From Mucilaginibacter jinjuensis (GTDB lineage: Bacteria; Bacteroidota; Bacteroidia; Sphingobacteriales; Sphingobacteriaceae), in assembly GCF_028596025.1 (NCBI RefSeq), contig NZ_CP117167.1:1550001-1614000 (forward strand): 64,000 bases of DNA, given 5' to 3'. This document shows, in pieces, positions 8,860-64,000 of the stretch. The notes beneath the pieces are model-generated. The model was not told the origin of the DNA. It made no database searches and saw only the letters and a program-made list of their open reading frames with translations. The first letter of the stretch is position 1. Every line of letters begins with the position of its first letter. The position numbers were made by a program, and so were the translations under genes.

Positions 8860-11511
8860 GTGTTAACTAATACGCTGTCAGACAATCTGTTTCTAAGCAT
8901 CTTTGAAAAATCAACAAATGCACTGCTGGTTAAAGCCGATGCTGCTTTTACAGTTGTTGCGGTAAGTGATGCTTATTTGCAAATGGCGAGTATCAGCAGG
9001 GAAGAAATAGTAGGGCATGGCTTTTTTGAAATACTTACCAAACTCACCGAACATTTTTATGTTGCCGATGCACTAAGCAATTCTTTTCAGCAGGTTATAA
9101 AAACCCGCGAAATTGCTTATTTGCAATACCCTGATCATTTAAATGTATTTGTACACCAGAGCGGCCAGCATTACTGGTCGGTAACCAATAAGCCTGTATT
9201 AGATGAGGATGGTAAGGTGGCCTATATCATCCACACCCCCGTTAATATTACCGAACAAATAACCCAGGAGGTTGCCAAACAAGCACAATTACATGGCGAT
9301 GCCTTGTTCCGTAAACTGGTTATGCAGGCGCCGTTTGCCATTAGTGTTTGCAGTGGCTACGAGTTAGTTATTGAGACAGCCAATAAACAGATATTGGAAC
9401 TTTGGGGCAAATCTGAAGCTGTTTTAGGGAAGCCCCTGGCTGTAGCTGTGCCCGAACTGGAAGGCCAGCCCTTTGTACAACTGTTAAGAAATGTATTGGC
9501 CAGCGGTGAGCCGCATTATGGGACAGAAACCCCTGCTGTTTTAATGCGTAATGGCGTTAAAGATACCTTCTACTTTAACTTTGTTTATTACCCTTTAGAA
9601 GAAAATAACGAATATACCGGCGTAATTATCATCGCCACAGATGTTACCGAGCAGGTGCAGGCCAGGCATGTAATAGAAGAGAGCGAAAAGCAGTTCCGTA
9701 ACCTCATTTCACAGTCGTCTGTTGCGATGGGGATTATGCGCGGCCCCGATATGGTGATTGATCTGTATAACGATGCGCTGTTAAAAATATGGGATAAAAC
9801 CGGGCAGCAGGTTACAGGTAAAAAGCTGATTGATGTATTCCCCGAACTAAAAGATCAGCAGTATCCAGCCTTGCTTAAGCAGGTATATGAAACAGGTGAG
9901 CCTTTTGAGGGCAATGAAGTGCCTGCCTATATTGAAACCAATAGTGGGCTTGTACTATTATATATCACTTTTTCATACAGGCCGCTTTTTGATGTTGGGC
10001 ACCGGGTATGGGGCATTATGGTTACCGCCTATGATGTTACCGGGCAGGTAGAGGCACGCCATAAACTGGAGCTGGCCGAAGAAAGCTTACGACTGGCTAC
10101 TGAGGCTACAGGTTTCGGTACGTTTGATGTTGACCTTATTAAAGGCAGTATCGTTTATTCGCCACGGTTGGCTGAGATTTTCGGGTACGATAATACAAAG
10201 CAATTCACACATAAAGATCTGCAATCGCATGTACATCCCGAGGATATGGGTACCGTGCAAAAGGCTTTTCAAAAAGCATTAACCAACGGGGGATTGTACT
10301 TCTATGAAGTGCGCAATATATGGCCTGATAGATCGATCCACTGGTTCCGCACACAGGGCAGCTTGTTGTTTGATGACGATGGTAAACCTATCCGCATGGT
10401 AGGGGCCGTGGTGGATGTTACCTCGCAACGGCATATCATTAACGAACTAAAACGAAGTGAAGAAAACCTGCGCATGGCAACCCAGGCTGCAGAGTTGGGC
10501 ACCTTTGACTGGAATGTAGCCGAAGATAAACTGGAGTGGGACAAACGCCACAGACAGTTGTTTGGGTACTCGTTAACCGATACCATTACCTTAGATAGGT
10601 TTTTAAAAGGCCTCCACCCTGATGACCATGAGCGGGTGATTGAAGCGCTTGATTATGCCTGCAATAAACAACTAAGCGAAGGTGATTATGATGTTGATTA
10701 CCGAATTATTAGTTTCAACGAGAAAAAACTGCGCTGGATAAGGGCCAAGGGTAAGGCTGTGTTTGACGAGCAGGGTAACCCCTTGCGTTTGGTAGGTACA
10801 GTGGTTGATATTACCGACCGCAAGCAGGATGAGATCCGTAAGAATGATTTTATAGCCATGGCCAGTCATGAGCTTAAAACACCACTTACTTCGCTCAAAG
10901 CATATATCCAGATGCTGCTCTCGAGTGCGCGAAAATCTGATAACCAGTTTTTCAGTGCTTCGCTCGAAAAGGCAGATAACCAGATTGAGAAAATGACGAA
11001 GCTGATCTATGGTTTTCTCGATCTGTCGAAAATAGAATCGGGAAAGTTACAGCTTGAGCTCAGTAATTTTAATATCAACGATGCTATTAATGAAGCCGTT
11101 GTTGATGTAAGGCCTATTACACAAAGCCACCAGATTGTGCTTGAACCTACAGAAGATCTGATTGTACATGCCGATCGTGAAAAGATTATGCAGGTGGCTG
11201 TTAACCTCATCAATAATGCGGTTAAATATTCGCCCAAAGGTACTACGATAACTTTATCGACACTCGATACTGGGAATTGGGTTGAAGTGGCTGTGAAAGA
11301 TCAGGGTATCGGAATTAATACCTACGATCTGCAAAAAATATTTCAACGCTTTTACCGTGTACAGGATGAGAAGACCCGTGGCTTCTCGGGCTTTGGTATC
11401 GGGCTGTACCTCTCTGCCGAAATTATGGCTCTGCATCATGGCGAAATTGATGTAAAAAGCGAAGCGGGGCAAGGTTCAACCTTTTATTTCCGTTTACCGA
11501 AAGCCTTATAA
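8860..11511 (+). CDS. Multi-PAS hybrid-lacking sensor histidine kinase
   Basis: An 883-residue kinase with no membrane segment or signal peptide, so probably a cytoplasmic sensor. About five PAS/PAC modules come in order (roughly 10-140, 150-268, 272-400, 405-530, 535-650), several ending in the PAC-like motif VDVT or DITDR. A HisKA domain follows with phosphoacceptor His670 in MASHELKTPLTSL. The HATPase domain shows the N box (VNLINNAVKYSPKG), G1 (VKDQGIGI) and G2 (FGIGLYLSAEIM). There is no receiver domain, so it must signal in trans, plausibly to the receivers at 8298-8663 and 6218-6589. The start is GTG, with a -7 box upstream; no nearby in-frame ATG exists. Confidence 0.92.
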   Translation: MLTNTLSDNLFLSIFEKSTNALLVKADAAFTVVAVSDAYLQMASISREEIVGHGFFEILTKLTEHFYVADALSNSFQQVIKTREIAYLQYPDHLNVFVHQSGQHYWSVTNKPVLDEDGKVAYIIHTPVNITEQITQEVAKQAQLHGDALFRKLVMQAPFAISVCSGYELVIETANKQILELWGKSEAVLGKPLAVAVPELEGQPFVQLLRNVLASGEPHYGTETPAVLMRNGVKDTFYFNFVYYPLEENNEYTGVIIIATDVTEQVQARHVIEESEKQFRNLISQSSVAMGIMRGPDMVIDLYNDALLKIWDKTGQQVTGKKLIDVFPELKDQQYPALLKQVYETGEPFEGNEVPAYIETNSGLVLLYITFSYRPLFDVGHRVWGIMVTAYDVTGQVEARHKLELAEESLRLATEATGFGTFDVDLIKGSIVYSPRLAEIFGYDNTKQFTHKDLQSHVHPEDMGTVQKAFQKALTNGGLYFYEVRNIWPDRSIHWFRTQGSLLFDDDGKPIRMVGAVVDVTSQRHIINELKRSEENLRMATQAAELGTFDWNVAEDKLEWDKRHRQLFGYSLTDTITLDRFLKGLHPDDHERVIEALDYACNKQLSEGDYDVDYRIISFNEKKLRWIRAKGKAVFDEQGNPLRLVGTVVDITDRKQDEIRKNDFIAMASHELKTPLTSLKAYIQMLLSSARKSDNQFFSASLEKADNQIEKMTKLIYGFLDLSKIESGKLQLELSNFNINDAINEAVVDVRPITQSHQIVLEPTEDLIVHADREKIMQVAVNLINNAVKYSPKGTTITLSTLDTGNWVEVAVKDQGIGINTYDLQKIFQRFYRVQDEKTRGFSGFGIGLYLSAEIMALHHGEIDVKSEAGQGSTFYFRLPKAL

Positions 11512-11517
11512 AAAATA

Positions 11518-11545
11518 GCGCCACACTTTCTAAAAAGTGTGGCGC
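11518..11545 (-). terminator. Intrinsic terminator of the barrel gene (minus strand)
   Basis: A perfect 12-bp stem (gcgccacacttt / aaagtgtggcgc) with a CTAA loop. Read on the minus strand it is followed by a T-rich run, so it best serves the leftward gene ending at 11636, though it lies between convergent genes and may act both ways. Confidence 0.8.
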
Positions 11546-11635
11546 GTCTGCACTCACTTACATCCCCTCAATACTGGTATTATAACAAAGTACGTGCCTG
11601 TATTTTCCCTTTGGTTAATTTTTATAAAGTTTTAT

Positions 11636-12865
11636 TTAAAATGCCTCGCCCAAAGCCAGCACAAAACCCGAGTAGCCTTTGCTGAAACCATAATCTAAAG
11701 CAATATTGGTATTAGATCCTTTATTGAATTTTATCCGCAAACCACCACCACCAGCAGGGTGAATGTATTTAAACTGGTGGGTATTAGGTTCGGAAACCGA
11801 AGTACTGTTGGCAAATAATACGAAGCCCAGTAACCCGCTTGGTAAAATATCCCGTCGGTACTCAGCTTCCATATAAGCAAGGCTTTGCCCACGGTAACGA
11901 TTTTGCTGAATTCCCCGGCCAGATCGGTTATAAAAATCCCACCCGATACTTGGCAGATCAAGATATGGTACACCTTTGTCGAGAGTTGTCCAGTAATAAG
12001 TCCACAAGGCCAGCATATTTTGCTGGCGGGTTTGGGTAAAGTGAATGTACTTACGCACATCAACATACAGCGATTGCCAGGCGGCATTACTACCCAGCAT
12101 CGGTGTGTTATAACGATAAACCAGGTTTGAGTAGCAGCCTGGTAGGGGATTTAGCGAGTTATTGCGGGTATCGTACAGTAAATTAAATGTTACGCCCGAT
12201 GAAAACGAATTGGCATTACTGGTGCCGTATTGATAGCCGGTAAATTGTTGCAGGTTTTGTACGTTTTCGTGCTGGGCATCAACATCAACATGGTAATCCA
12301 TCGCATAACCAATACCTGCAAAAAAGTACGATGTAATACGTTTAAGGGCACTTTGGTAAAACCTGATGTACTTATAGTCGACACTTATTTTGTTGTTTTG
12401 CCGGGTTGCGCCACCAAGGCCCCAGGTATCTTGCGGGTATATCAGGAACCGTGTATCGCCCTGTATAAACCAGTTGTTATTATTAAGCCAGATGTTAGAA
12501 CGCAACGGTAAGCCAAAGCGGCCTGTAAAGTTAAAATAGGGCGTAAACGTTACGTTCGATATATTGGTGGTTTCTCTATCGCCAACATAAAAACCTGCTG
12601 TAGTAGAGGTAATTAATGCACGGCCGCCACCCGGTACTGCCGATGATATAGGAAGAATAGAAAAATAGATAGATTTTCTTGGCGCATCCTCCATGCTGGT
12701 ACTTGGGGCAGTATTTATCTTGAAGACATTTTTAAAGAGACCGATAAGATCCTTTTGCCCAACCGTATCAACTTCTTTTTGCGCCGAGCCAAACGAGTTG
12801 CTGCTTTGTGCAAACAGCAAGCCCGGAAGCAGCACAAGTAAAAGCCACGATACGAGTATCTTCAT
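11636..12865 (-). CDS. BamA/TamA-family outer-membrane barrel protein (bacterial surface antigen type)
   Basis: A 409-residue protein with a signal peptide ending near PGLLFAQ. The body is an Omp85-type C-terminal barrel: the segment GRGIQQNRYRGQSLAYMEAE is the recognisable motif, followed by EYRRDIL, and the chain ends in a beta-strand with terminal Phe (SGFVLALGEAF). There are no POTRA repeats before the barrel, so it is a barrel-only relative, not the essential BamA. Its cargo is unknown. It is monocistronic on the minus strand, with a strong terminator 90 bp past the stop. Confidence 0.82.
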   Translation of the reverse strand: MKILVSWLLLVLLPGLLFAQSSNSFGSAQKEVDTVGQKDLIGLFKNVFKINTAPSTSMEDAPRKSIYFSILPISSAVPGGGRALITSTTAGFYVGDRETTNISNVTFTPYFNFTGRFGLPLRSNIWLNNNNWFIQGDTRFLIYPQDTWGLGGATRQNNKISVDYKYIRFYQSALKRITSYFFAGIGYAMDYHVDVDAQHENVQNLQQFTGYQYGTSNANSFSSGVTFNLLYDTRNNSLNPLPGCYSNLVYRYNTPMLGSNAAWQSLYVDVRKYIHFTQTRQQNMLALWTYYWTTLDKGVPYLDLPSIGWDFYNRSGRGIQQNRYRGQSLAYMEAEYRRDILPSGLLGFVLFANSTSVSEPNTHQFKYIHPAGGGGLRIKFNKGSNTNIALDYGFSKGYSGFVLALGEAF

Positions 12866-56712: not shown

Positions 56713-58215
56713 TCAACTTTGATAGCTGGGCTTACATTGATTAGCCTTATCAAATACCGGAGCAACCAATTCTTTTCCCCATATTTTCTTGCCTGCCTTT
56801 TTGGGGTTCATTTGGTAATAGGTGTTCCTGCTTTGAAAATAAAGGTCGATAGCTTGTCTGCAGGCTTTTACAGATGGATAATCGCTATTATGTATGACCG
56901 CGCGGGCAAGGCCACTAAATACCGATTCAATCACATTTAAAAATTGTGCACGACAGGGTAATGTTGCCAGTACGATCTTTGGCAAACGTTGTAATTTTTG
57001 AAATGCTTCGCTGTTGAGTATATCAATATACTCAACAAGTTGCTTCGACGTATGCCAACTAGCAGCATCCCAGGACAGATAAATAGTATCTTGATCCATA
57101 TACTGAATTAATAGCTTATCGATGAGCTTAATCATTTCATCCGTATTCTTGTTGGGTGAATAAAAGTGCGTCACCTGGTTAGTGGAAAGTTCTATTGCGG
57201 CTGTGCAAATGATATAGCCCTTACTTTTCTGAGTTTGAGGGATGATTTTACGTGTCCCTTGTTTCATTAATTTTCGGCCTCCTTTCATTTTTATAGCAAA
57301 AGGCCCGTATTCATCGATGGAGAAGAACTTTTCTTTTGTTCCAAGATTTGCAAGAATGTCCTGAATGACTTGGAACTTTTCCTTGTACAAAGGGTCGGGA
57401 CTGGTGAGTTTTGTCTTGGAACTGATATAACGGTATCCTCGTTGCCTCAGATACCTGCTGATCATATGCGTTCCCATCGAAACATGGTATACCTGTTTGT
57501 AAATAGTAGCTAAATCTTCAAGTCGCCAGGAAGTGCGGTTAATATGGTAAATGTGTGGTGATTGATGAAGCAGATCGACCAGGTTATCAGTTTTAGTTTT
57601 AATGGCTGATTTCTTTGCCTCACCTACGCAACATTTTCTTTTAAATCCGTCTAAACCGTACTTTTTATAAGTCTTATACCAGCGTAGCAAGGTCTCCCTG
57701 CACACTTCGATCTTGGCCTGGGTCTTATCAATAGGAATGTATTCTGCTGCATCTTGTAGCGCTACGGCTATTTGCCATCTTCTATGGTCATTTCCATTAC
57801 GCCATTCTGTTAATATGATTTGTTCTTCCTCCGGAAAATAAACGCGCTCTTGTCGGTTGATATGATGATCCAGGCAATATTGTATTAAAAGATCTTTAAA
57901 GACGGTTTGTGTGTATCCTTCAGGATAAATGAGCTTGTATTCCTTCCAGATTTCTGTAGCAATAATCTGGTGGTCCTCATACTCCCTTAGTATATAGGGG
58001 AGTACTTTTTCAAATTCTAAATAACGATCTGTCGGTCTGTGAACCGGGGTTTGTACCGGCATAAAGAAACCAAAGTCCATCAATTTGTCAGGATAAAACT
58101 TTTCTATCTTTCTGAACTCAGTGACATATAATGTAACCGTCTTACGGCCAATGCCCCATTTTAAGTATAAGAAGAACAAAACGAATAGTTTTGAACAGTC
58201 CGGCATGCCCTGCAT
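56713..58215 (-). CDS. DDE transposase: IstA-like N-terminus with IS630-like catalytic domain
   Basis: About 500 residues; ATG at 58215, with an in-frame TTG at 58221. The N-terminus (KLFVLFFLYLKWGIGRKTVT then EIWKEYKLIYPEGYTQTVFK) resembles the IS21 IstA start. From about residue 150 come IS630-like HTH segments (RETLLRWYKTYKKYGLDGFK) and a DDE domain: Asp303 (SIDEYGPF), Asp385 (LSWDAASWH) and Glu432 (LNVIESVFSG). It is longer than the usual IS630 transposases of about 340 residues. Terminal inverted repeats were not resolved by eye. Confidence 0.8.
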   Translation of the reverse strand: MQGMPDCSKLFVLFFLYLKWGIGRKTVTLYVTEFRKIEKFYPDKLMDFGFFMPVQTPVHRPTDRYLEFEKVLPYILREYEDHQIIATEIWKEYKLIYPEGYTQTVFKDLLIQYCLDHHINRQERVYFPEEEQIILTEWRNGNDHRRWQIAVALQDAAEYIPIDKTQAKIEVCRETLLRWYKTYKKYGLDGFKRKCCVGEAKKSAIKTKTDNLVDLLHQSPHIYHINRTSWRLEDLATIYKQVYHVSMGTHMISRYLRQRGYRYISSKTKLTSPDPLYKEKFQVIQDILANLGTKEKFFSIDEYGPFAIKMKGGRKLMKQGTRKIIPQTQKSKGYIICTAAIELSTNQVTHFYSPNKNTDEMIKLIDKLLIQYMDQDTIYLSWDAASWHTSKQLVEYIDILNSEAFQKLQRLPKIVLATLPCRAQFLNVIESVFSGLARAVIHNSDYPSVKACRQAIDLYFQSRNTYYQMNPKKAGKKIWGKELVAPVFDKANQCKPSYQS

Positions 58216-58221
58216 AGACAA

Positions 58222-59915: not shown

Positions 59916-60341
59916 TTAATTAACTTCACCTAACGCTGCTTTCCGTTTGGCCCTCATGGCTTCTTGTATGCCGGTTATAGTACTTTCCCGATTTGTTCTC
60001 AATTGCTGGATAAATGACGAGTTGCCTTCCGGATTCATATATTTCCCGCCAAAAGCGAACATATCTAAAATAATAGGAATGGTTTCGATACCTTTTTCGG
60101 TCAAATAATACAGGAACTTAGAGGCATTTTGAGGTGAAGCTTTTTTTACAAGAAAACCTTCACGAACCAATAATGCAAGCTTTGCCGTCAAAACGGATGG
60201 CGCGATCTTTTCGTCAGAAGCCTTCCATTCCAGGAAAGATGATTTTCCATGCGTAATCATATCCCTTAATATCAGGAATGACCATTTATCTCCAAATACG
60301 TCCAATGTGTAACTGATTGGACAGTCTGATCTATGTTCCAT
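59916..60341 (-). CDS. HxlR-family transcriptional regulator
   Basis: A 141-residue winged-helix protein: MEHRSDCPISYTLDVFGDKW, LRDMITHGKSSFLEWKAS, then the wing LVREGFLVKKAS and YLTEKGIETIPIILDM. Cys7 in the DCPI motif is the conserved redox-sensing cysteine of many family members, which detect electrophiles or disulphide stress. It is divergent from the oxidoreductase operon, 232 bp apart, with an inverted repeat and promoter between. It most likely represses that operon (inference). Confidence 0.92.
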   Translation of the reverse strand: MEHRSDCPISYTLDVFGDKWSFLILRDMITHGKSSFLEWKASDEKIAPSVLTAKLALLVREGFLVKKASPQNASKFLYYLTEKGIETIPIILDMFAFGGKYMNPEGNSSFIQQLRTNRESTITGIQEAMRAKRKAALGEVN

Positions 60342-60497
60342 ATACCTACGTTCAGGTTCACACCACTTTAATCCCGCAAAATTACAAAAGTCATTTTAAA
60401 TATTTGTTCGCTGATTGTCAATACTTAAGCTGCCGCTTAATCTTATTGACTTTGTAACTGCTGTGTCAAGAAAGCGTTAAAAATCGTTAAAATATCG

Positions 60498-60526
60498 AAA
60501 AGTAGTATCGATTTAATACTACTTTT
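60498..60526. promoter_or_regulatory. Inverted repeat, candidate HxlR operator
   Basis: Perfect 11-bp arms aaaagtagtat / atactactttt with a 7-base centre. It sits between HxlR and the operon and ends 2 bp before the -7 box of the operon promoter, an ideal position for repression. Confidence 0.68.
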
Positions 60527-60528
60527 TC

Positions 60529-60536
60529 TACGTTTG
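60529..60536 (+). promoter_or_regulatory. Bacteroidota -7 promoter box TACGTTTG of the MRJP/oxidoreductase operon
   Basis: A full TAnnTTTG match 37 bp before the MRJP-like ATG at 60574. The -33 zone is covered by the inverted repeat, so binding of a repressor would hide the promoter. Confidence 0.6.
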
Positions 60537-60573
60537 TACCGTCGACAACAAAAAGATTTAAAAAATTAAAAAA

Positions 60574-61725
60574 ATGAAAATGAAATATCTATTCCTTGGG
60601 CTCTTAATGACAGGCTCAACGATTAATTTAACAAAGGCAAATCCATTAACCGTATCACGCAAAACAAACGTAGACAGTTCAGAAATAGTTAAAACCAAAC
60701 CTGCTGCCGGATTAGAAGAAGTTTACACAGACGCCGATTATCAGTTGGCAGGTGTAGCCATTTCTCCAAAAGGAAGAATGTTTGTTAGTTATCCTTACTG
60801 GCTTGAAAAGCATAGTTATTCTGTAGTCGAAATTGGTGCAGACAAAAAACCGCATCCATTTCCTAATGCAGCCTGGAATAGTTTCAAAAAAGGCGATGAC
60901 GGCAGTCAAAAATTCGTGAGTGTACAGGCTATTTACGCCGATGACAAAAACAACCTTTGGATTTTAGACCCTGCAAATATCAGCTTTGGCGATGTTTATC
61001 AGCAAAGCAACAAATTGGTACAAGTTGATTTAAGCACAAACAAGGTTAAACGGGTTATCCGTTTTTCTGCGGACGTTGCCGGAAGCAAAAGCTTTTTGAA
61101 CGATGTACGCGTTGACAATGCTCATGGCTTTGCTTATTTATCAAATACCACCCTGGGTGGTTTGGTGATCATCGACCTGAACACCGGCAAATCAAGGGCG
61201 GTTTTAAGCGGCCACGCTTCTGCATTTACAGATCCGGCTTATCACTTTACCTTAAATGGCAAAGAATTGGCTACCCCACAAGGTGCTTTTAAAGCTAATA
61301 CAGATGGTATTGCTTTATCTCCTGACAATGCCTGGGTTTATTACAAGTCTTTAACTGATAACCACCTACATCGCGTGAGCACAAAAGTACTACGTAACTT
61401 TAACAGCACTGAAAGTGATGTAGAGGGCCAGGTAGAAAAGGTTGGCGATTTTGTAACCTCTGACGGCATGGTTTTCGATAAGGCCGGTAACCTCTATCTG
61501 GGTGACATCGAGAACTCCCGCATTGTACGTATCTCCCCGGATAAAACAATGACTACCCTTGTAGTAGATAAAGATAACCTGATCTGGCCGGATAGCTATG
61601 CGATCAGCAAAGACGGTTACCTGTACATCACCTGTTCACAGATCCATGAAATGTTATTCTTCAATAACGGAGAAAACAAAACCCAATATCCATATAAAGT
61701 TTTCAGGCTGAAATTGAATAATTAA
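60574..61725 (+). CDS. Secreted major-royal-jelly-protein (yellow)-like six-bladed propeller protein
   Basis: A 383-residue protein with a signal peptide ending near TKANP. It has the MRJP layout: LAGVAISPKGRMFVSYPYWL, QAIYADDKNNLWILDPAN, FLNDVRVDNAHGFAYLSNT, then IALSPDNAWVYYKSL and MVFDKAGNLYLGDIENSRI. Related SMP-30/strictosidine-synthase-type propellers act as lactonases or binders; the substrate is unknown. It is the first gene of the HxlR-controlled operon. The next gene starts 69 bp later. A second, lipid-anchored MRJP-like gene closes the cluster. Confidence 0.85.
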   Translation: MKMKYLFLGLLMTGSTINLTKANPLTVSRKTNVDSSEIVKTKPAAGLEEVYTDADYQLAGVAISPKGRMFVSYPYWLEKHSYSVVEIGADKKPHPFPNAAWNSFKKGDDGSQKFVSVQAIYADDKNNLWILDPANISFGDVYQQSNKLVQVDLSTNKVKRVIRFSADVAGSKSFLNDVRVDNAHGFAYLSNTTLGGLVIIDLNTGKSRAVLSGHASAFTDPAYHFTLNGKELATPQGAFKANTDGIALSPDNAWVYYKSLTDNHLHRVSTKVLRNFNSTESDVEGQVEKVGDFVTSDGMVFDKAGNLYLGDIENSRIVRISPDKTMTTLVVDKDNLIWPDSYAISKDGYLYITCSQIHEMLFFNNGENKTQYPYKVFRLKLNN

Positions 61726-61794
61726 GCCTTCAATAAACTGAATAGGTAGCCGGTTTCATCCCGCTACTTCATCCTTACCATAAATCAAACGATA

Positions 61795-62715
61795 ATGAAA
61801 GCATTAAGCATTACCGGGCAAATTGCACCGGCAGCCTATGTATTGTCCTGTGTTCCGGTGCCAACGATAAATCCAGACCAGGTTTTGGTAAAAATCAGGG
61901 CAGCCGGGATCAATCCTATCGACTGGCAGACCATAGAATATGGCTTTTTCGATATGCTCGGTCTAAGCGTTCCCTATACCATGGGGTATGATATCGCCGG
62001 CGTTGTTGAAAAGGTAGGCGAAAACGTATCCGGATTTAAAGCCGGTGACGAAGTGATGGGATCACTCGCTATCTCTCATCCTGGAAGTTTTGCAGAATAT
62101 GCAGCAGCAGATGCGCAAATTCTTATCCACAAACCGGAAGCGCTTTCATTTGCGGAGGCCGCAGCTGTTACGCTGGCCGGAGAAACAGCCTATCAGGCAT
62201 TATTTGACCATCTGCAAATTCAGCCTGGCCAAAAAGTATTGATCCAGGCGGCTGCGGGAGGCGTAGGTATTTTCGCCGTGCAACTTGCTTTACAGACCTG
62301 CGCCTATGTTGTGGCCGTAGGATCAAACCGAAATACGGATTTTTTAAAAGCACTGGGCGCTGATGAAGTGGTGGATTATCATGCAGGTTTCGGTTCACTC
62401 AGTACTGATTTTGATGCCATACTCGACAGCATGAATAGTGCAGAACAAACATTGCCGCTACTTAAAAAGGGAGGCAAATACGTATCCATCACACAACCTG
62501 CTTCTGCTGACCTCGCTGAAAAACATCAGGTAACTGCTACTCACTTTCTATACACGCCAAATGCGGCTCACTTACAGGAATTGGTTAGCAGGATCGGAAA
62601 AAGCCAGCTCCAGATTTACATTGACAAAACTTTTGCCTTAAATGATATCAACGAAGGTATCAACTATCAAAAAAACGGACACACCCGTGGAAAGAACGTC
62701 ATCATCGTGGAATAA
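61795..62715 (+). CDS. NADP-dependent MDR oxidoreductase (quinone-oxidoreductase-like)
   Basis: A 306-residue MDR protein with the GroES-like domain (KIRAAGINPIDWQTIEYGFF, YTMGYDIAGVVEKVGENV) and the Rossmann segment with AAAGGVGIFAVQLA (about 152-165). It lacks catalytic zinc ligands, as expected for quinone oxidoreductases. It likely reduces quinone or another electrophile with NADPH, consistent with the HxlR context. The exact substrate is unknown. Confidence 0.9.
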   Translation: MKALSITGQIAPAAYVLSCVPVPTINPDQVLVKIRAAGINPIDWQTIEYGFFDMLGLSVPYTMGYDIAGVVEKVGENVSGFKAGDEVMGSLAISHPGSFAEYAAADAQILIHKPEALSFAEAAAVTLAGETAYQALFDHLQIQPGQKVLIQAAAGGVGIFAVQLALQTCAYVVAVGSNRNTDFLKALGADEVVDYHAGFGSLSTDFDAILDSMNSAEQTLPLLKKGGKYVSITQPASADLAEKHQVTATHFLYTPNAAHLQELVSRIGKSQLQIYIDKTFALNDINEGINYQKNGHTRGKNVIIVE

Positions 62716-62771
62716 CCGGTTTTGGCTTTATCAATCATAAAAATTAATTCATCATATAATTCAAAAGAAAA

Positions 62772-63539
62772 ATGAACAGCACAAATAAAACCGTCCTGAT
62801 AACAGGTGGCGGATCAAGAATTGGATTCCAAACAGCAAAATTATTTAGTGGAAAAGGCAGCAAGGTTATTATCGTTGGCCGTAACGAAGCAAAATTACAG
62901 GCAGCCGCCAAAGAACTGAACAACGTCGACTACTTTGTAGCGGACGTTACCAATGAGGCAGACGTAGACCGTATAGTTGAGCACATCCAAAGCAATTACC
63001 CTTCATTGGATGTGTTAATCAATAACGCCGCTGCTAAATTTGTAAATCGTGTAGGAAGTGGTGCAGCTATCCGCCTGGAAGCGGCCGAAGAAATGAACAC
63101 CAACTACATTTCTGTCATTAACCTGACTGAGCGCCTATTGCCCATTCTGAAACAACAGCAGGAATCGGCAGTGATCAACATCACCACCGCGGTAGCGTTG
63201 GTTCCCAGCACAATTATCCCGACCTATTCCGCCAGTAAAGCGGCCCTCCGGTCTTATACACAGGCCCTGCGGTTTACCCTGGAATTAGATGGCGTTAAAA
63301 ACGTGAAAGTTTTTGAAGTACTACCTCCACTGGTTAATACGGAGCTTTCCAAAGACAACGGCGGTGAACGGGGTATTGCACCTGAAGAAGTTGCCAATGA
63401 TCTGCTGGCAGGCCTTGAAAACGACAATCTGGAAGTGCGTGTATCCGTAACGGAAGGCTTTTACCAGGCATTTTTTGGCAATTCGGCAAATGCTATAGTT
63501 GCGCTTTACAAAGCGGAAAGAGGCGAATCGTTCAATTAG
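62772..63539 (+). CDS. SDR-family oxidoreductase with altered glycine motif
   Basis: A 255-residue SDR of the DltE-like group. The cofactor loop is TGGGSRIG (11-18), where Arg16 replaces the middle Gly of TGxxxGxG. The Asn motif is VLINNAAAK (81-89), and the active site Tyr152/Lys156 lies in PTYSASKAA, with Thr139 in the usual Ser place. It follows the MDR gene by 56 bp. It probably reduces a carbonyl substrate, but the altered glycine may affect cofactor binding. Confidence 0.88.
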   Translation: MNSTNKTVLITGGGSRIGFQTAKLFSGKGSKVIIVGRNEAKLQAAAKELNNVDYFVADVTNEADVDRIVEHIQSNYPSLDVLINNAAAKFVNRVGSGAAIRLEAAEEMNTNYISVINLTERLLPILKQQQESAVINITTAVALVPSTIIPTYSASKAALRSYTQALRFTLELDGVKNVKVFEVLPPLVNTELSKDNGGERGIAPEEVANDLLAGLENDNLEVRVSVTEGFYQAFFGNSANAIVALYKAERGESFN

Positions 63540-63574
63540 CACATCGAACTTAAAGTTTTTAACAATAAAATATA

Positions 63575-64000
63575 ATGAAAAATTCATTTTGGGGCCTCAT
63601 TCTAATCGGTTCAGTAATTATCTCCCTGCAAGCCTGCAAAAAGGATAACACTGCAAATAAACCCAACACTGCTACGCTGGAACAAGTTTATGCGGACAGC
63701 ACCTATGAACTTGCGGGCATCTCCGTTACGCCTTCAGGCAGGTTCTTTGTCAGCTATCCTTACTGGCTAGATAAACACGGCAATTCAGTTGTCGAAATTG
63801 GTGGTGATAAAAAGCCTCACCCGTTTCCCGATGCAACATGGAATAGTTTTCAGCAAGGCCAGGACGGCAATCAGAAATTCGTTAGTGTTCAGGCCCTTTA
63901 TGCAGACGATCAAAACAATCTCTGGATTTTAGACCCAGCCAATATCGGTTTTGGCAACGTGTACCTGACCGCTAATAAATTAGTTCAGGTTGACCTTGGC
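63575..64000 (+). CDS. Lipid-anchored MRJP-like protein, C-terminus off window
   Basis: 142 codons seen. It begins MKNSFWGLILIGSVIISLQA with the lipobox SLQAC (Cys21). The following sequence matches the first MRJP-like protein (60574) closely: LEQVYADSTYELAGISVTPS, YPYWLDKHGNSVVEIGGDKK, then QALYADDQNNLWILDPAN. It is a paralogue differing mainly by its lipoprotein anchor, apparently in the same operon (36 bp after the SDR stop). Confidence 0.88.
   Translation, partial: MKNSFWGLILIGSVIISLQACKKDNTANKPNTATLEQVYADSTYELAGISVTPSGRFFVSYPYWLDKHGNSVVEIGGDKKPHPFPDATWNSFQQGQDGNQKFVSVQALYADDQNNLWILDPANIGFGNVYLTANKLVQVDLG

Follow-up and report, generated by a model that had tools for sequence, protein, structure and literature searches.

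What do two propellers of the MRJP/Yellow family, both with export-type N-termini, do around a pair of reductase genes next to a divergent HxlR-family regulator? We addressed this question for a locus at the end of a 64-kb window of the complete 6.16-Mb genome of Mucilaginibacter jinjuensis (contig NZ_CP117167.1, positions 1,550,001 to 1,614,000). The window means this whole stretch of 64,000 nucleotides, and positions are counted from its first letter. An earlier note on this DNA had described an HxlR-controlled operon in which the two propellers act outside the cell and a medium-chain (MDR) and a short-chain (SDR) dehydrogenase act inside, as a two-compartment response to a reactive small molecule. 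Our comparison of related loci shifts the emphasis from the four-gene order to a recurrent pair, an MRJP lipoprotein and a zinc-less-looking MDR, which deserves follow-up more than the order does.

The core genes of the locus are as follows.

59916-60341, minus strand: HxlR-family regulator, divergent from the genes below (Pfam PF01638, 49.7 bits); just outside the interval of the earlier note (60342-64000)
60574-61725, plus strand: MRJP1, Yellow/MRJP-family propeller (Pfam PF03022, 100 bits); signal-peptide-like start without a lipobox
61795-62715, plus strand: MDR, quinone/enone oxidoreductase-like (Pfam ADH_N and ADH_zinc_N_2); zinc-less by reading
62772-63539, plus strand: SDR, short-chain dehydrogenase (Pfam PF00106, 141 bits)
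63575-64690, plus strand: MRJP2, MRJP-family lipoprotein (PF03022, 105.5 bits) with the lipobox ...SLQAC; the window stops at 64000, and the gene is complete in the genome

The open reading frame coordinates and Pfam matches bear out the layout given by the earlier note, with MRJP, MDR, SDR and MRJP-lipoprotein genes on one strand; MRJP2, completed from the genome copy, is 371 residues long.

An MRJP and a zinc-less-looking MDR recur as a pair

To place the locus among its relatives, MRJP genes were searched in overlapping samples of 60 relatives and of 395 class, 149 genus, 395 phylum, 398 G820-genus and 150 G324-family genomes. A plasmid collection and one named-genome scan, which gave one locus from Flavobacterium beibuense, were also included. 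Neighborhoods were compared for 63 loci with 65 MRJP genes; L112, L119 and L120 were not among them, and L036, which duplicates the stretch of L100, was not counted.

The arrangement HxlR-MRJP-MDR-SDR-MRJP had no second copy among the 63 neighborhoods and was found in its own genome alone. Recurrence of the four-gene order is thus rejected, and this is the outcome that the earlier note had named as refuting its proposal. The nearest parallels are L124, with an MRJP fragment, an MDR and an MRJP and with HxlR, AraC and SDR genes close by, and L054.

A narrower association does recur. A zinc-less-looking MDR lies within two genes of nine of the ten MRJPs nearest to MRJP1 (at least 369 bits), two of the nine being the window's own. 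The GHE motif is a mark of zinc-type MDRs, and the paired proteins, 306-318 residues long with 0-3 Cys, are without it. The miss is L037, whose related MDRs are at a distance of five and six genes. By comparison, none of the other 55 MRJPs has, within two genes, an MDR at least 33% identical to the references (one-sided p 3e-10, with related loci taken as independent, as in all pairing p values here). Four MDRs served as references for these labels (two from L037, one from L038 and one from the window), so that those loci match by construction. When the window's own pair and the near-identical G997 and G1244 were collapsed, the counts became 7/8 versus 0/54 (p 1.6e-8). The pairing is also above the chance rate expected from the density in the window's own genome, about 0.011 MDR per 5 kb.

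Phylogenetic trees point in the same direction. The ten closest MRJPs, with those of the window inside, form one side of a branch with support 78/99, and 79% of 200 bootstrap trees recover it; for this tree, three cupin-MRJP fusions were trimmed of their first 150 residues. The MDRs of seven loci (G036, G912, G1365, G950, G820, G997 and G1244) also group together, with support 91/86, in a tree from which 7 of 25 MDR rows had been dropped beforehand. The inner forks are alike in both trees, G912 standing with G1365, and G950 with G820 and with G997/G1244. Judged by these trees, the MRJP and the zinc-less-looking MDR are a recurrent pair that has been co-inherited in seven genomes. The window copy reads as an odd variant of it: the MRJP belongs to the recurrent module, but the MDR is of another subfamily, the regulator is a different one, HxlR, and the MRJP has been duplicated locally.

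Structure, export and duplication of the propellers

Both window propellers exceed the PF03022 cut-off of 19.8 bits, which places them in the MRJP/Yellow family. The AlphaFold2 model of MRJP1 has a mean pLDDT of 89.2, and beyond residue 50 most blocks of ten residues reach 90-98. Its first five fold matches are all MRJP/Yellow entries: bacterial Ava_4197 (2qe8, Z 44.2, root-mean-square deviation 1.7 over 317 residues), the Aedes dopachrome conversion enzyme (9w1k, Z 39.3), bee MRJP1 (5yyl, Z 39.1; 7asd, Z 37.8) and a sandfly salivary protein (3q6k, Z 34.7). The next listed match falls to 29.2. In the structural alignments, Ava_4197 shows 31% identity with MRJP1, and the insect proteins show 17-20%.

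The N-termini differ within the locus. By reading, MRJP1 starts with a plain signal peptide and MRJP2 with a lipobox, while the MDR and the SDR have neither. Counted with the lipobox pattern, eight of the ten branch MRJPs carry the box, L098 has a near-miss and MRJP1 has none, compared with one of 16 other rows. The two window genes are sisters in the tree (100/100), and their DNA shows 71% identity across 951 bp. On the present sampling, the duplication took place within this lineage. MRJP1 has probably lost its lipobox Cys after the duplication, because its relatives in the branch have one.

The reductases

The window MDR has two Cys and no GHE motif and is zinc-less by reading. It scored 140 bits against TIGR02824 (Quinone_pig3), where the cut-off is 296.8, and is not a member of that subfamily. 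Its nearest solved relatives by sequence are a ripening-induced protein (4ida) and a quinone oxidoreductase and homologue (3tqh and 5a3j). Of the 149 genus genomes, only its own has a match at E<=1e-75.

The SDR is of a type common in the genus, present in 65/149 genomes at E<=1e-60, its own counted. SDR motifs have a catalytic Ser at a position that is held by Thr in the window protein (62772-63539; NITTAVA...YSASK).

The HxlR regulator and a candidate operator

The window HxlR belongs to a "GDKW" clade of eight rows (support 100/99). Its nearest solved relatives by sequence are 4gcv, PA1607 (2f2e) and YybR (4a5m), the last of which is also called HypR; YodB is also among its relatives. With its profile score of 49.7 bits and an N-terminal Cys, Cys7, it has both features by which YodB-type sensors are picked out, a criterion that does not discriminate. 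Cys7 is the sole Cys of the protein, which lacks the further Cys near the C-terminus that an intersubunit disulfide of the YodB type would need; 1-Cys or alkylation sensing is possible. Relatives in the clade adjoin SDR (L162, L183), epimerase-type (L163), F420_oxidored-type (L185) or p239 (L184, L242) genes, p239 being described below. Relatives from the HxlR/DUF24 family sense quinones or hypochlorite, through YodB Cys6, CatR Cys7 and QsrR Cys5 in Bacillus and Staphylococcus (PMC6798810).

The gap between the HxlR gene and MRJP1 holds three candidate control elements.

60377-60384, minus strand: candidate -7 box TAATTTTG for the HxlR gene, a pattern match alone, 35 bp before the HxlR start
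60498-60526, no strand: inverted repeat AAAAGTAGTAT N7 ATACTACTTTT with perfect 11-bp arms and a 7-bp loop; candidate operator
60529-60536, plus strand: candidate -7 box TACGTTTG of the operon promoter, fitting TAnnTTTG and starting 2 bp past the repeat end

TAnnTTTG is the -7 consensus of the host phylum. From 60529 to the end of the sixth gene of the run the plus strand has two matches in total, TACGTTTG and one in the 5473 bases that run from MRJP1 to that point. The perfect 11-bp-arm repeat that ends 2 bp before a -7-like box, as reported earlier, is confirmed. When the 232-bp gap was shuffled 2000 times by dinucleotides, 14 shuffles gave arms of at least 11 bp, and 7 of 275 equal-size tiles across the window have such arms too; the repeat is unusual, not unique. 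That it might be the terminator of the upstream gene was rejected because the HxlR gene is divergent. A scan for sigma-70 promoters and terminators gave 10 promoter-like sites versus 13.1 in shuffles, and 10 terminator-like sites versus 6.1.

We also screened the upstream regions of 44 HxlR genes from this and other genomes with all 1,024 pentamers as inverted pairs, against single-base shuffles. Four HxlR rows that were fragments or outliers had been removed beforehand, and an open reading frame scan had recovered 13 of the 16 own-genome HxlR genes, three being missed. TACTT...AAGTA occurred in 10/44 regions versus 0.73 in shuffles, the biggest count among the 15 best pentamers and the third by ratio. 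The order present in the window, AAGTA...TACTT, occurred in 5/44 (the window counted) versus 0.47. With a fixed spacing, perfect TACTT-N9-AAGTA was found in four of the eight members of the HxlR clade (L162, L163, L184 and L242) and in 5/45 regions overall, versus 0.1 of 44 shuffled. Upstream of HxlR genes, this dyad is a candidate operator of the clade.

Genes downstream and at related loci

The same-strand run goes on beyond the window, with intergenic gaps of 69, 56, 35, 84 and 72 bp from MRJP1 to the sixth gene.

64775-65494 (L005 8776-9495), plus strand: p239, a protein of 239 residues, beyond the window
65567-66046, plus strand: a protein of 159 residues with a signal-like start, sixth gene of the run, beyond the window

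p239 matches nothing in Pfam or NCBIfam and, by reading, lacks a signal peptide; its predicted fold is LolA-like (3buu, E 4.5e-9, TM 0.56). It was present in 12/120 genus genomes at E<=1e-15, its own counted. At L242 and L251 it is divergent from HxlR genes of the window HxlR's clade, and at some other loci it adjoins SDR, MDR or CMD-like genes. Two hairpins mark this part of the run. Between MRJP2 and p239 there is one of -19.5 kcal/mol that has no T run. The other, a long hairpin 3' of the sixth gene (CTTTTTCTCATC / GATGAGAAAAAG, L005 about 10111-10149), is a possible transcript end.

On the other side of the HxlR gene, an IS630-family transposase is encoded at 56713-58221 on the minus strand (NCBIfam NF033545, 131.9 bits, cut-off 100), 1.7 kb from the HxlR 3' end. 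It provides a possible route for local rearrangement. A PADLOC search of four proteins gave no match, leaving a defense-system link without support.

By similarity, AraC-like genes lie within six genes at 7/8 other branch loci versus 3/55 MRJPs outside the branch; Pfam confirms one AraC-like protein from each of these seven loci, that of L093 lying beyond six genes. Three loci were scanned more widely. L037 has OsmC, a ferritin-like (Dps-type) protein, two cupins, a TPP enzyme, PEBP and a thioesterase; L124 has DUF417, CMD, a metallo-beta-lactamase-fold hydrolase and HxlR; and L093 has DUF417, CMD, PEBP and a cupin-MRJP fusion. On these annotations, all three loci have stress-type genes. The DUF417 proteins RclC and RcrB contribute to HOSCN/HOCl resistance in E. 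coli, according to the available parts of two sources (PMC9600549, PMC12096828).

Cupin-MRJP proteins of about 500 residues, with an N-terminal cupin and a C-terminal MRJP domain, are encoded directly downstream of the pair's MRJP at L093 (9915-11417), L098 (7319-8830) and L101 (6913-8400). At L124, a short interrupted MRJP-like frame (11441-11776) on the far side of the MDR adjoins a metallo-beta-lactamase-fold gene and looks like a decayed second MRJP. L054 (5436-9159), one of 30 SDR loci compared and viewed here with wider flanks, has an SDR that shares 53% identity with the window SDR and, no more than four genes away from it, an MRJP (39%), an FMN reductase, HxlR and TetR; this locus appears as a looser parallel to the window.

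A tentative model of the locus

Taken together, these data lead us to a tentative proposal, to which we give somewhat less than an even chance. The locus would be a stress operon that counters a reactive electrophile by means of a Yellow-type protein in the envelope and reductases in the cytoplasm; the likeliest electrophile would be a quinone, aminochrome or enone. HxlR would repress the operon from the dyad and be released once Cys7 is oxidized or alkylated. The Yellow-type propeller in the envelope would bind or isomerize the electrophile, in the way that the insect dopachrome conversion enzyme acts on an indole quinone, and electrophile that enters the cell would be reduced by the MDR and the SDR. 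The window would then represent a local variant, with HxlR, an SDR and an unrelated MDR in place of the relatives' AraC-type regulators and other MDR, and with a duplicated MRJP. Chemistry, operator and co-transcription are the parts of this proposal that we infer.

A number of results weigh against the proposal, beginning with the single occurrence of the gene order. The pairing contrast is smaller when any MDR-family gene is counted (9/10 versus 9/55, one-sided p 1.3e-5): outside the branch, a distant MDR-family gene, 22-30% identical to the references, lies within two genes of 9 of the 55 MRJPs and within three genes of 13. Most of these distant MDRs are zinc type by reading, with a GHE motif and 4-12 Cys, and one is annotated as zinc-dependent; those of L141-L143 have no GHE motif. 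The window MDR itself falls outside the group of the seven co-inherited MDRs, on a long unplaced branch; its identity to them is 33-37%, and over all nine cluster MDRs compared it spans 30-37%. Across 30 SDR loci with 1.5-kb flanks, an HxlR gene occurs at four and an MRJP at the window's alone, leaving 26 without HxlR and 29 without MRJP.

The regulatory and envelope parts meet similar difficulties. The Cys7 that the earlier note had called redox-type is present in HxlR. We rejected it as special evidence for redox sensing because 34 of 48 aligned HxlR-profile rows (four of the 48 being fragments or outliers) and 10 of the 13 own-genome HxlR genes recovered have a Cys there; a regulator with a single Cys could answer to another signal. 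HxlR control of the window operon is only plausible, because the window has no perfect TACTT-N9-AAGTA and its best match, 8/10 at 60520-60538, is at chance level. The window dyad presents HxlR-like half-sites in the reverse order of the dyad of close HxlR relatives, and GTGAT and CAGGC stand above TACTT by ratio in the pentamer screen. The transcript may also stop at the hairpin between MRJP2 and p239. As for the propellers, a shared fold is no proof of function, and no function test or tested substrate of a bacterial MRJP/Yellow protein was found in searches of the open-licence literature. The N-termini fit the earlier placement of a secreted and an anchored propeller outside and the reductases inside; because the propellers are a local duplication, that arrangement may be recent and incidental. 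The idea of a two-compartment response is in part favored, by the N-termini, the recurrent MRJP-MDR pair, the stress-type neighbors and the quinone or hypochlorite sensing of HxlR/DUF24 relatives, and weakened by an order seen once, a common Cys7, a differing MDR subfamily and reversed half-sites.

Alternative explanations

The propellers might instead be secreted enzymes of the lactonase or hydrolase type in a catabolic operon for a natural product or plant metabolite, with the MDR and the SDR as pathway dehydrogenases. SMP-30-type enzymes have a metal-binding Glu at a site where the family alignment reads L-A/T-G-V here, and the five MRJP/Yellow entries, at Z 34.7-44.2, stand above the lactonase-labeled fold matches (2p4o, Z 28.4; 8djf, 26.0; 7ris, 25.5), Drp35 also being among the fold matches. 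We regard this explanation as unlikely, while its points of support are these same lactonase-labeled matches, a Pfam SGL match of MRJP1 at 28.8 bits (cut-off 26.3), and the alpha/beta hydrolases, thioesterase and metallo-beta-lactamase-fold hydrolase at L037 and L124. Non-catalytic binding is another explanation, to which we assign a low probability: the MRJPs would, in the manner of LJM11 or bee MRJP1, serve as sponges or sensors for a small aromatic amine, a sterol or a pigment, and the reductases would merely share a stress promoter. Bee MRJP1 (5yyl) and the sandfly salivary protein 3q6k, both close structural matches of MRJP1, are presumably binding proteins, and duplication into one free and one anchored copy would suit capture. 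Binding alone, however, leaves the joint inheritance of MRJP and MDR in seven genomes unexplained.

That same co-inheritance, together with a pairing rate above chance, also speaks against an opportunistic cluster, in which often-shuffled stress and oxidoreductase genes (MDR, SDR, HxlR, AraC, p239) have become adjacent by gain and loss and share no pathway. Such an origin seems improbable to us, though it has several footholds. The genome has 14 MDR-family (PF13602), 16 HxlR and 4 MRJP matches, the window MDR has no relative at the threshold used in the 148 other genus genomes, and regulators and partners vary among loci; some MDR-family gene also lies near 9 of the 55 other MRJPs, and the IS630 transposase is close to the HxlR gene.

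Returning to electrophile defense, a stronger form of the proposal can be stated, which we consider doubtful. In it, an undescribed two-compartment defense of Bacteroidota would lock an MRJP lipoprotein that converts quinoid compounds or aminochromes to a cytoplasmic zinc-less MDR, under interchangeable AraC or HxlR regulators. If this were true, the ancestral job of the Yellow/MRJP family would have been quinone handling, well before insect melanin and royal jelly.

Relation to known systems

Searches of the open-licence literature gave no link of MRJP with MDR or HxlR, no operon of this kind and no active-site paper on the insect dopachrome conversion enzyme. Many listed plasmid records annotate MRJP-type genes as "L-dopachrome tautomerase-related", and a protein so described has been assigned to the eumelanin route proposed for an acetic acid bacterium (PMC12654741). 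A bacterial origin of the Yellow family, with possible gene transfer from bacteria, is discussed in the accessible portion of another (PMC6678240). A co-inherited MRJP-MDR pair, in stress-type company at the loci scanned, offers a concrete, testable function for bacterial MRJPs and bears on the origin of the insect Yellow/royal-jelly family.

Four known systems can be set beside the locus. The YodB, CatR, QsrR and HypR regulons of Bacillus and Staphylococcus are alike in that their regulator is of the HxlR family and has an N-terminal Cys, and that their targets are of the quinone-reductase type; as far as the available part of the source goes, those targets are azoreductases, nitroreductases and dioxygenases without an exported propeller, unlike the window locus (PMC6798810). 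The Rcl/Rcr operons of E. coli (RclR; RclC/RcrB) resemble L093 and L124 in their AraC-type regulators and nearby DUF417, whereas the window has HxlR and no DUF417 among ten proteins scanned, eight on the window side and two downstream. Flavobacterium has MRJPs, one of them with a cupin domain, and this fusion recalls the cupin-MRJP genes beside the pair's MRJP at L093, L098 and L101; the portion of the report available proposes roles in plant-host interaction and reports no MDR link (PMC6801697). Finally, the Yellow/MRJP family itself (insect dopachrome conversion enzyme, bee MRJP1, LJM11 and Ava_4197) has its fold and the Pfam MRJP domain in common with the window MRJPs, at the low identities given above, and differs in that the protein is here of the lipoprotein type and linked to an MDR.

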